Below the pieces are notes generated by a model, which was not told the origin of the DNA, made no database searches, and saw only the letters and a program-made list of their open reading frames with translations. The position numbers and the translations under genes were made by a program. This document shows, in pieces, positions 16,058-19,558 of a stretch of DNA of 38,927 bases (its first letter is position 1; each line of letters opens with the position of its first letter). This stretch comes from Desulfurococcales archaeon (GTDB lineage Archaea > Thermoproteota > Thermoprotei_A > Sulfolobales > Acidilobaceae): positions 1 through 38,927 of the forward strand of contig WAKG01000003.1 of assembly GCA_015523445.1 (NCBI GenBank), in the 5' to 3' direction.

Positions 16058-16471
16058 ATGACTAGGATCGAATCTACTCACATTACTATACCTACCTCAT
16101 CAAGGTTCCAGCTAGTCGATGTTACCAGCATGATCCAGGATTGGGTCTCCTCTATTAACGCTGGAGACGGGATAGTACTTGTGTATAGCCCGCACACTAC
16201 AGCTGGGGTCATAGTGAATGAGGCCGAGCCAGGGCTTATGAAGGACATATTAGACCTACTACGAGAGGTAACAAGGCCTGAAGGGGGGTGGAGACACAAT
16301 AGAATTGACAATAATGCCCATGCACATCTAGCTCAGGTTCTGGTAGGTGATAGCAGGGTGATCCCGGTAGCTAGAGGCTCACTTATGCTCGGCACGTGGC
16401 AACGAGTTATGCTACTAGAGATGGATGGGCCTAGGCGTAGGAGGCTCAACTTAGTCTATATAGGCTCCTAA
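16058..16471 (+). CDS. YjbQ family protein (UPF0047)
   Basis: A 137-residue single-domain protein with the family signatures SPHTTAGVIVNE, NNAHAHL and the LGTWQ...EMDGPRRRR end. Relatives show weak thiamine-phosphate synthase activity when overproduced, but the true role is not settled. ATG start with GGTGG about 6 nt upstream and CTTAAAG (16022-16028) as a possible TATA element. A candidate C/D box RNA follows at 16489. Confidence 0.9.
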   Translation: MTRIESTHITIPTSSRFQLVDVTSMIQDWVSSINAGDGIVLVYSPHTTAGVIVNEAEPGLMKDILDLLREVTRPEGGWRHNRIDNNAHAHLAQVLVGDSRVIPVARGSLMLGTWQRVMLLEMDGPRRRRLNLVYIGS

Positions 16472-16488
16472 CACATAAGCCTTCCATT

Positions 16489-16562
16489 GGGATGACGACC
16501 ACCCCGAACAGGATCTGAGACCCCCTCATAGAGGGGATGATCTAGTGGCGGCTGTCTGACCC
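16489..16562 (+). ncRNA. Candidate C/D box guide RNA (possible 16S rRNA 530-loop guide)
   Basis: Between the YjbQ and XPD genes. In order: terminal stem GGG (16489-16491), box C ATGACGA (16492-16498), D' CTGA (16515-16518), an internal hairpin CCCCTC/GAGGGG, C' ATGATCT (16537-16543), a 12-nt guide, D CTGA (16556-16559), and CCC closing the terminal stem. The guide AGTGGCGGCTGT next to D can form ten contiguous pairs (one G-U) with the universal 16S sequence GCCAGCCGCCGC; the fifth-nucleotide rule would point to C522 (E. coli numbering). Weak points: box C has one change, C' two, and the C-D' spacer is 16 nt rather than about 12. Expression is unproven. Confidence 0.5.
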
Positions 16563-16584
16563 ATTAGATGAGAGGGGTATAGTA

Positions 16585-18429
16585 GTGGAGGAGCCAGTGT
16601 TCCCCTACAGGGAGTTTAGGTCTGGACAGAGAGAGCTTGCTGAGGCTGTTAAAGAGACGGTTAGTGGCGGAGGTATACTTGCGGTAAAGGCCCCTACAGG
16701 ATTCGGAAAGACTGCTGCAGTTATTTATGGCCACCTACTGGCTGAGGCGCCTAAGGTCCTCTTCCTAGTTAGGACTGTTAATGAGGTAGAGCCTGTGGCT
16801 AGAGAGCTGAAGAGGTTTGGAGTCAACTATACAGTATTGATCTCACCCCGCAGAACCTGTCCCCTACTAAGAGGGTCCTCCAGTCATGTACCAGTAGAAG
16901 ACTTCTGGGAAAACTGTAGGATAGCAAGGCTCCGCGGCGCTTGCCTCTATTATATGGAGGTTGACTCTATTGATCCCAGCTCTGTATCTACTATCCTCTT
17001 AAATAGCCCTAGTTCCCTCTCGGGCCTCAGGCTAATAGGCTCCAAGCTGGGCTCTTGCCCCTTCTTCACTGCTAGGAGGCTTGTTAGGGATACAGCATTC
17101 ATTATAGCTACGTATCCCTACTTCTTCAAGAAGGAGTTGTTTGACTATGTCGTGGCTGAGATGGGGGTGTCCTATGGGGATCTTAGTGTTGTGATCGATG
17201 AGGCGCACTCCATATTATCTATCCACTCTATAACTGAGAGGAGCCTGACCCTAGACATGCTAGATAGGGCTGTGGAGGAGATCAAATCTAGAGTTCCAGA
17301 GTATAAAGAGGTTTTGGATAGTCTAATAGCTCTAAAGAACCTTATATCTAGGGTTATGGAGAGGCGCGCTAGGGGGCTTAGGCTAATAGATAAAGAAATC
17401 GTATTCGAGGCACTGGGTGACCATCAGCTCATACTGGATGCGGCAGAGGAGTCCAGGTTTAGGGCAGCTAGTGAAGCCTTGGCCAGTGGCGATGCGTCTA
17501 GTATGGTGTCTATAAGGAGTCCATTGTACTCTGTTGCACTTTGGGTAGAGACCATCGTGCTTGACGACTCTAGGGTTTTCTATAGTGGGGAGCCTAAGCC
17601 CCTGCTACTCGTCACATTATTAGATCCGGCAAGGATAGCTAGAGAACCGTTAGAGTCGGTACGCAGTGCCGTCCTCATGAGCGGGACCCTGCCCCCCCAT
17701 GGGTTCCTAAGTAGGATAATAGGGCTAAAGAGGAGCATCCAATACCTGGATTTATCCGTAACTAATAGAGTAGGAAAGGATTCTGTATATACTGCTGTAG
17801 CATCCGACGTATCCACTAGATATGTAGAGAGGAATAGGGTTACCTATTCTAGGATAGCATCGTATATTAATGTGATCAACACTAGGCTTCCGGGCCCCAA
17901 ACTGGTGGTATATCCGAGCTACGAAGTTATGAGGAGCATACTAGACAAGCTGCCTGCAGGCGTTGAGATGCACACTGAGGATAGGGGTACTAGTATAGAC
18001 TCACTAACAGAGTCCCTGTCTCCAGATGACCGTGTACTAATCAATGCGGTAGCTGGAGGTAAACTTGTTGAGGGTGTCGAGTTTACCATTAACGGTCATA
18101 GTATTGTGAGGGTTGTAGTGGTGGTAGGCGTCCCCTTCCCTCAGCCTGATGACTATACCAGGGAGCAGCTTCAGGTGGTCTCCTCCAGACTAGGCAAGGA
18201 GGGTGGCAGAGACTATGTCTACAGGTATCTTACTATAGTTAAGGTTAAGCAGGCCCTGGGCAGGGCCCGAAGGAGCCCTAGTGATAAAGCCGCGTTTTTC
18301 CTTTTAGACTATAGGTATCTTAGGAAGGATCTGAGGTCTATGCTAGGACTCAGGTATGATAGGGTGTTTAAGGGTGTATATGGGCTAGCGGCCACTCTTC
18401 TAGAGGCCTCACGGCTATTGTCTAGCTAA
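16585..18429 (+). CDS. xpd: XPD/Rad3-family iron-sulfur DNA helicase
   Basis: 5'-3' superfamily 2 helicase, likely acting in DNA repair. Walker A is KAPTGFGKTA (about 35-44), the DEAH box VIDEAHSI, and motif VI QALGRARRSPSDKA. Four cysteines at 92, 111, 120 and 158 (TCPLL, NCRI, ACLYY, SCPFF) match the 4Fe-4S pocket found in archaeal XPD. At 614 aa it is somewhat longer than the roughly 550 aa of Sulfolobus XPD. GTG start with GAGGGG 7 nt upstream, 22 nt after the candidate guide RNA. Its TAA stop overlaps the stop of the convergent gene (CTAA). Confidence 0.94.
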   Translation: MEEPVFPYREFRSGQRELAEAVKETVSGGGILAVKAPTGFGKTAAVIYGHLLAEAPKVLFLVRTVNEVEPVARELKRFGVNYTVLISPRRTCPLLRGSSSHVPVEDFWENCRIARLRGACLYYMEVDSIDPSSVSTILLNSPSSLSGLRLIGSKLGSCPFFTARRLVRDTAFIIATYPYFFKKELFDYVVAEMGVSYGDLSVVIDEAHSILSIHSITERSLTLDMLDRAVEEIKSRVPEYKEVLDSLIALKNLISRVMERRARGLRLIDKEIVFEALGDHQLILDAAEESRFRAASEALASGDASSMVSIRSPLYSVALWVETIVLDDSRVFYSGEPKPLLLVTLLDPARIAREPLESVRSAVLMSGTLPPHGFLSRIIGLKRSIQYLDLSVTNRVGKDSVYTAVASDVSTRYVERNRVTYSRIASYINVINTRLPGPKLVVYPSYEVMRSILDKLPAGVEMHTEDRGTSIDSLTESLSPDDRVLINAVAGGKLVEGVEFTINGHSIVRVVVVVGVPFPQPDDYTREQLQVVSSRLGKEGGRDYVYRYLTIVKVKQALGRARRSPSDKAAFFLLDYRYLRKDLRSMLGLRYDRVFKGVYGLAATLLEASRLLSS

Positions 18430-18806
18430 ACCTCCTCCACCCTTGACTCCAGCTCATCATATACGTCAAGTATAGCTTCGCGCGTCTTCCTTTCAACCTT
18501 GAAGCCGTGTAGCCTTAGTATCCTATCTATCTCGTCAACTATAGATACCAGAGTTTCTAGGACCTCCTCTAGCGCTTCTCTCGGATCCTCTCCGTGGTCC
18601 AGATATTCGTCAACCCTCTCCCTTAGCCCCTCACCTACCTTCATCTCCACAACAATGGTATCCCCAGTGGGGTAGACCTCTATGTATATGGGCTCGTCGG
18701 GAACTATAATTTCGAGGACTCCATTCTTACTCTTAGTTGTTGCACCTCTCCTACTAACGGTTTTAGAGATCTCCTCTACTACATCTCTTCCTAGCACGTT
18801 ATTCAC
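18426..18806 (-). CDS. Acidic hypothetical protein (126 aa)
   Basis: Unrecognised. The N-terminal half looks like a small beta-rich domain (VLEIIVPDEPIYIEVYPTGDTIVVEMKVG), and the C-terminal half a charged helix (about 65-126). The ORF-track start is GTG 18806; an in-frame GTG at 18797 has GGGTG about 6 nt upstream and may be the real start. A TATA-like ATATTATA at 18835-18842 lies between it and the candidate guide RNA. Convergent with XPD, sharing 4 nt at the stops. Confidence 0.7.
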   Translation of the reverse strand: MNNVLGRDVVEEISKTVSRRGATTKSKNGVLEIIVPDEPIYIEVYPTGDTIVVEMKVGEGLRERVDEYLDHGEDPREALEEVLETLVSIVDEIDRILRLHGFKVERKTREAILDVYDELESRVEEV

Positions 18807-18852
18807 CCACTAGACTTTCCTGCTGCTGAGAGGGTATAATATGGTGTATCCT

Positions 18853-18927
18853 GGGGGTCAGCCCTGCGCGGGGTCTTCACCACCCTAACTATAGGGCTCC
18901 GCCCTTTCGAGCCACATCACTCCCCCC
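18853..18927 (-). ncRNA. Candidate C/D box guide RNA overlapping a stop codon
   Basis: Minus strand. Terminal stem GGGGG (18922-18927) with CCCCC (18853-18857). Box C GTGATGT (18914-18920), 12-nt guide GGCTCGAAAGGG, D' CGGA (18898-18901), a 17-nt linker with hairpin CCCTA/TAGGG, C' GTGAAGA (18874-18880), 12-nt guide CCCCGCGCAGGG, D CTGA (18858-18861). Boxes C, D' and C' each differ from consensus at one base, but the G and A that form the sheared kink-turn pairs are kept. The TGA inside box C is the stop codon of the methyltransferase gene. I found no confident target for either guide. Confidence 0.5.
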
Positions 18928-19558
18928 GGATTAGCCGTATACAGGCGAAGCCCTCTTTGCCAGTATAGTCTCTAGGCTCCTCCGGCCTCTCCCTCTCCCA
19001 CGGCATGTATGTTATGGTGGCCTTTATAGAGTCAACAGTGAATCCAGCCTCCCTAGCCATCTCTACAAGGCTGGCTATACTGATAAATCTGGCATGAGAA
19101 TAGTATGGATGCCCTTTGTCTGCTAGGGTAGAATAGTACCTGCCTAGGGGTGACTCCTTGGGTACTATGCATATTACCATGACTCCTCCAGGCTTTAGTG
19201 CCCTGTATGCCTCTTCCATCATCCTATGTGGATCGTTCATAAAGCATATAGATACGACGACAAGTATGCTGCCCAGAGATAGGCTCCTAACTGGGAGGGC
19301 CTCTCCCCGGGCAACTGCAACCTCTATCCCCCTGTCCAATGCTATCCTGAGCATCTCCAGGCTAGGATCTATCCCGAACACGCATCCAGCCCTCTGCGCG
19401 AAGAACCCTGATCCCACTCCTACTTCCATGCAGGGAGTAGGTGCATCCCGGAGCATGTCCACAACGAGTCTAGCCTCATTCTCCGCTGTGATCCTGTGCC
19501 TTGTATACCATGAATCATACTCTACAGCCCTCGAGTCGAACAGCCATGCAGTGGACAA
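18917..19558 (-). CDS. Class I SAM-dependent methyltransferase
   Basis: A 213-residue Methyltransf_11-type protein. Motif I is CMEVGVGSGFF, followed by FGIDPSLEML (ribose-binding acidic residue) and ALKPGGVMVIC (motif VI region). The substrate cannot be told; this group includes small-molecule and quinone methyltransferases. TTG start with AGGGG upstream. Its stop codon lies within box C of the candidate guide RNA downstream. Confidence 0.83.
   Translation of the reverse strand: MSTAWLFDSRAVEYDSWYTRHRITAENEARLVVDMLRDAPTPCMEVGVGSGFFAQRAGCVFGIDPSLEMLRIALDRGIEVAVARGEALPVRSLSLGSILVVVSICFMNDPHRMMEEAYRALKPGGVMVICIVPKESPLGRYYSTLADKGHPYYSHARFISIASLVEMAREAGFTVDSIKATITYMPWERERPEEPRDYTGKEGFACIRLIRGE

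Follow-up and report, generated by a model that had tools for sequence, protein, structure and literature searches.

Archaeal box C/D guide RNAs of the Pyrococcus sR26 type carry boxes C, D', C' and D, have 12-nt guides and follow the D+5 rule, and the interval between D' and C' is an unpaired loop. Archaeal C'/D' motifs in general form either an internal kink-turn or a k-loop, according to whether the kink is bordered by a stem I or by a loop (PMC8413462), so the internal kink-turn is, as a motif, already known in archaea. In eukaryotic snoRNAs such as yeast snR51, snR60 and snR70, stem I is present at the internal C'/D' motif. Eukaryotic Snu13 requires that stem and both G-A pairs, whereas archaeal L7Ae binds k-loops as well; the non-consensus C'/D' motif of yeast snR51, which has a stem I, is also bound by archaeal L7Ae.

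The two loci described here, sRNA-A and sRNA-B, share the four boxes and the 12-nt guides with the sR26 type, and the D+5 rule and the same assembly with L7Ae, Nop5 and fibrillarin would be expected to apply. Unlike sR26, they have a stem I, mostly 4-8 bp in RNAs of this kind, where the loop would be; a k-loop is defined by having no helix between D' and C', and both RNAs have one. With the internal kink-turn of archaeal guide RNAs (PMC8413462) they have in common a helix-flanked kink, with stem, 3-nt bulge and G-A pairs in identical register. They differ from it in that the form occurs in several sRNA families of one genus, where it alternates with k-loops within orthologous families, and in that the D' boxes have drifted. 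We consider it probable (about 0.8) that sRNA-A and sRNA-B are box C/D guide RNAs in which the internal C'/D' motif is a complete kink-turn, made so by a GC-rich linker stem I.

The window, by which we mean the whole 38,927-nt stretch of DNA that was analysed, is one contig (C3) of the assembly of a Desulfurococcales archaeon. Because no rRNA genes were found in this assembly (1.61 Mb, 164 contigs, 90% complete), the rRNAs of relatives were used for target comparisons. The family was taken as Acidilobaceae, to which the same-genus genome G002 ('Acidilobaceae archaeon' MAG JALWEI01) is assigned. Among the other relatives are G015 and G023, which we take to be Aeropyrum, G022, presumably Acidilobus, and G039, presumably Pyrolobus. 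The features of the region are as follows.

16058-16471: UPF0047 protein gene
16489-16562, plus strand: sRNA-A, box C/D guide RNA gene (boxes read directly; conservation)
16492-16498, plus strand: sRNA-A box C, ATGACGA (direct reading and descriptor match)
16515-16520, plus strand: sRNA-A box D', CTGA at 16515-16518 or, preferred from covariation, GAGA at 16517-16520
16522-16536, plus strand: sRNA-A linker hairpin CCCCTC-ATA-GAGGGG, arms 16522-16527 and 16531-16536
16537-16543, plus strand: sRNA-A box C', ATGATCT (direct reading)
16544-16559, plus strand: sRNA-A 12-nt guide AGTGGCGGCTGT (16544-16555), then box D, CTGA (16556-16559)
16585-18429: XPD/DinG-like helicase gene
18426-18806: open reading frame, product unknown
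18853-18926, minus strand: sRNA-B, box C/D guide RNA gene with a 5-bp GGGGG/CCCCC terminal stem
18858-18873, minus strand: sRNA-B guide 2, CCCCGCGCAGGG, then box D, CTGA (18861-18858)
18874-18881, minus strand: sRNA-B 3-nt bulge GGT (18881-18879), overlapping box C', GTGAAGA (18880-18874)
18882-18897, minus strand: sRNA-B linker hairpin GCCCTATAGTTAGGGT (GCCCTA-TAGT-TAGGGT), candidate kink-turn stem I
18898-18901, minus strand: sRNA-B box D', CGGA
18902-18913, minus strand: sRNA-B guide 1, GGCTCGAAAGGG, with an 11-bp tRNA-Glu(UUC) match
18914-18920, minus strand: sRNA-B box C, GTGATGT
18917-19558: methyltransferase-like open reading frame

Thus, sRNA-A is placed between the UPF0047 and helicase genes, and sRNA-B begins where the methyltransferase-like frame stops, one TGA serving as stop codon and as part of box C (18917-18920, minus strand). 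Archaeal C/D genes with overlaps of this kind are known (PMC7994747). In three other genomes (L190, L192 and L193, of G015, G023 and G011, respectively) sRNA-B occupies a site different from that in the window, approximately 0.5 kb upstream of 16S rRNA. An Rfam scan placed neither RNA in a C/D family, its sole match being a tRNA. A first-pass annotation of the window had called both loci candidate C/D guide RNAs and had noted the stems CCCCTC/GAGGGG and CCCTA/TAGGG between D' and C'. Both points hold, as the boxes can be read directly, the two loci are conserved in relatives, and the stems are found where they had been placed.

The clearer case of the two is sRNA-B, which reads as a textbook C/D sRNA. 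Both of its guide spacers are exactly 12 nt, and the linker pairs from end to end in six pairs, the closing one being G-U. The 6-bp stem begins at once after D' CGGA and is followed by the 3-nt bulge GGT and then by the GA of C'. Judged from the sequence, this order of stem I, 3-nt bulge and tandem G.A pairs is the geometry of a standard kink-turn.

As read here, sRNA-A is genuine but less tidy, with an ambiguous D' and a long first spacer: the C-D' interval is 16-18 nt, whereas the second spacer is 12 nt. The terminal stem is weak (approximately 2-3 bp), and the linker is 18 nt when counted from CTGA (16515-16518) to C', in agreement with the first-pass annotation. Two genomes of the genus have the RNA with 80-82% conservation. 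In G001 and G002 the GAGA of the window is GGGA. Positions 1 and 2 of GAGA/GGGA pair with positions 6 and 5 of C', and one of these pairs switches from A-U to G-C; because of this covariation we favour GAGA as the D' box. The stem of G001/G002, CCCTA/TAGGG, directly adjoins D' and has the exact kink-turn register. One compensatory change separates it from the CCCTC/GAGGG of the window, where one or two extra C residues set the stem 1-2 nt out of the ideal register. A relative of sRNA-A in G016 (L006) has the stem GCCTCC/GGAGGC in the same kink-turn register as sRNA-B. Across the order, the D-guide, in the second half of the RNA, is kept in 30 of 214 genomes, and the first half differs among lineages. 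Copies from a second family of the order (f11; L409-L423) combine the D-guide, as GTGGCGGCTGT, with the D' guide GACCTTTGGGA and a short linker. This D' guide matches 23S rRNA, as it does in L271; the Acidilobaceae copies have different D' guides.

One alternative is that these are k-loops of the usual variable sort whose GC richness is accidental, and that the stems are chance or neutral features with no structural role. The folding of the naked RNAs is indeed not exceptional (MFE z of -1.4 and -1.0, not significant), so that the support for the hairpins is comparative. We assembled 52 sRNA-B loci, nearly all archaeal, from a pattern scan and from relatives' genomes. Their linkers fall into two broad length groups, with the 2-nt linker of a k-loop in 18 of the 52, a count that favours this alternative, and a linker of at least 9 nt in 23. 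The 2-nt state occurs within the Acidilobaceae themselves (L066 and L160), many other members of which have hairpins.

The first-pass annotation had staked its proposal on covariation in the linker stems, and such covariation is present in sRNA-B. Among 20 linkers of at least 12 nt, non-pairing ones included, double compensatory changes were seen at all six stem pairs. The covariation value was 0.598, as compared with 0.230 for shuffled alignments, and was reached by none of 500 shuffles; registers slid from that of the kink-turn gave at most 0.295. Paired cells made up 78.3% (57.2% after shuffling), and doubly changed cells numbered 27 as opposed to 10.9. When 3' arms were swapped among orthologues, a mean of 32.9 outer pairs and a maximum of 62 were obtained in 10,000 trials, whereas 85 were observed. 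These figures overstate significance since related rows are not independent, but the effect size and the peak at one register are hard to explain otherwise. The same register is seen in L034 and L080 (GCCGCC/GGCGGC), L035 (GGCCCC/GGGGCC), L041 and L134 (GCCGGT/ACCGGC), L132 (GCCCCC/GGGGGC) and L176 (8 bp). The compensatory changes at six of six pairs, the sharp peak at the kink-turn register and the arm-swap control all argue against an accidental origin of the stems, which we regard as quite unlikely.

A somewhat different possibility is that the stem is real but has another role, such as an additional protein site, a processing or circularisation signal, or a clamp for heat stability of the transcript. 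The lengths of stem and loop are quite variable, linkers reaching up to 31 nt in L039, L048 and L132, beyond what a kink-turn needs, and in L037 and L045 the stem is one nucleotide out of register, as such a role would allow. The dominant form, in contrast, begins immediately after D' and stops 3 nt before the GA, and drift of D' goes with it; we therefore think another role unlikely. Still less can the hairpins be expected to be terminators of transcription or inserted repeats that have nothing to do with guide RNAs. Hairpins of 5-6 bp rich in GC are superficially terminator-like, but no terminator-like site was found in the region, and in the orthologues the hairpins are flanked by conserved boxes and guides, which makes this explanation very improbable.

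The drift of D' differs between the two linker classes. D' is CTGA in 8 of 21 short-linker sRNA-B orthologues and in none of 18 with a hairpin, and its third letter is other than G in 6 of the 18 hairpin orthologues as opposed to none of the 21 (Fisher p 0.006, ancestry ignored). Drifted boxes seen here are CGGA, CTTA and GGGA. It has been reported that L7Ae still binds a C'/D' motif from which the 2n-2b G-A pair is missing if stem I is present, and that Snu13 does not (PMC8413462); the drift that accompanies the hairpins fits these binding data.

The genome has an L7Ae gene, and in this genus the IEV residues in loop 9 of L7Ae are retained. K-loop binding is thus presumably intact and would not need the stem, in line with the persistence of k-loop sRNAs; retention of these residues is also what would be expected if the linkers were variable k-loops. 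For the same reason, loss of k-loop binding by L7Ae is not supported as the cause of the stems. A separate feature of L7Ae in this genus (L385 in G000, L387 in G002) is YVRSKK, where other sampled relatives have YVPSKK.

As a check, the first-pass annotation had further proposed a genome-wide scan for RNAs of the same layout. With a descriptor that left linker length free, we scanned 448 kb of the organism's own genome (about 30%) and 363 kb of G002. In this part of its own genome, 12 matches scored at least 15, as compared with approximately 0.8 per dinucleotide-shuffled replicate, and three matches had a stem score of at least 4, as compared with none on shuffled sequence. The 12 included hairpin-linked RNAs (L237, L219 and L250) as well as k-loop RNAs (L209, L240 and L216); because the sampled sequence is partial, the proportions of linker types are rough. 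The hairpin form recurs in the L237, L219, L250 and L269 families. One register is shared by at least four sRNA families that are unrelated to each other, which again speaks against accidental stems in k-loops. Paired changes accompany the stems of L219 and L269: same-genus orthologues of L219 go from GCCCTC/GAGGGC to GCCCC/GGGGC, and stem changes in L269 are likewise paired within the genus, while other genera alternate hairpin and short linkers. In G022 (400 kb, GC 0.572), there were 12 matches, none with a stem of at least 4 bp, and linkers were at most 6 nt in seven. As its GC content is similar, GC content alone was rejected as the cause of the stems, and the same comparison tells against linkers that are GC-rich by accident. 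The Aeropyrum-like G015 gave few matches, one of them with a 5-bp stem.

These results modify the proposal of a lineage-specific form in which a full kink-turn replaces the k-loop. The stem I register in sRNA-B and in same-genus sRNA-A orthologues, the compensatory changes and the recurrence above shuffled background within one genome sustain it, and neither of the outcomes named in advance as refuting it was observed. Replacement, however, is too strong a word: the genus retains 2-nt k-loop sRNAs, and the hairpin form is therefore enriched in it. Nor is the form confined to the lineage, since further genera of the Desulfurococcales type have it and the linker state switches within one orthologous family.

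The first-pass annotation would have taken matches near rRNA-complementary guides as support. The guides of sRNA-A and sRNA-B showed no complementarity to relatives' rRNA above that of shuffled guides. Guides of L250, L269, L271, L216, L235 and L240 have 10-12 nt matches to relatives' rRNA at positions that agree among several genomes, a consistency that supports the descriptor. For instance, guide 2 of L250 forms 11 bp with 16S rRNA, and the guides of L269 form 10-11 bp with 23S and 16S rRNA of several relatives. The sRNA-B guide 1, on the other hand, pairs with the anticodon loop of the organism's own tRNA-Glu(UUC) (L307) over 11 bp with no mismatch, and D'+5 falls opposite U34. The match score of 11 is just under the 95% shuffle value of 11.3 (24-nt query). 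Despite this, a tRNA target is likely, given the register, the wobble position and how deeply the guide is conserved. The probable function of sRNA-B guide 1 is to direct methylation to U34 of tRNA-Glu(UUC), not to rRNA. No target above shuffled background was found for sRNA-A, its guide 2 fitting the 16S 530 loop CAGCCGCCGC with one G-U at a level not above shuffles, and none that was convincing for sRNA-B guide 2. A tRNA intron of G002 (L318) holds CCTGCGCGGGG, 11 nt of which are complementary to sRNA-B guide 2, possibly by chance.

If the RNAs are expressed, the D'-C' linker probably folds into the GC-rich stem I in place of a short k-loop, so that L7Ae would bind at two kink-turns, one terminal and one internal. 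Bound L7Ae would recruit Nop5 and fibrillarin, and fibrillarin would methylate the target at the nucleotide that lies across from guide position 5, counted upstream from D or D'. Stem I most likely would stabilise the internal motif and its L7Ae site, relaxing selection on D', which would thereby be free to drift from CUGA; in some relatives even one G.A pair appears to have been lost.

In the literature that we examined, recurrence of the form across sRNA families of one lineage, with switching within orthologous families, was not found described, and an earlier description of lineage-wide hairpin linkers is possible. We suggest, tentatively and at somewhat less than even odds, that many C/D sRNAs of this Acidilobaceae lineage have exchanged the k-loop for a full internal kink-turn, stem I offsetting the decay of D', in which CUGA and even one sheared G.A pair have been lost, and that their evolution has taken a route linked elsewhere with eukaryotic snoRNAs. 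Descriptors that presume a short D'-C' spacer overlook guide RNAs in such genomes. The orthologous guide RNAs form a natural series whose members differ mainly in having a k-loop or a kink-turn at C'/D'. With this series one can test directly why the k-loop has been retained in most archaea and how stem I affects L7Ae binding, sRNP assembly and the tolerance of degenerate boxes.
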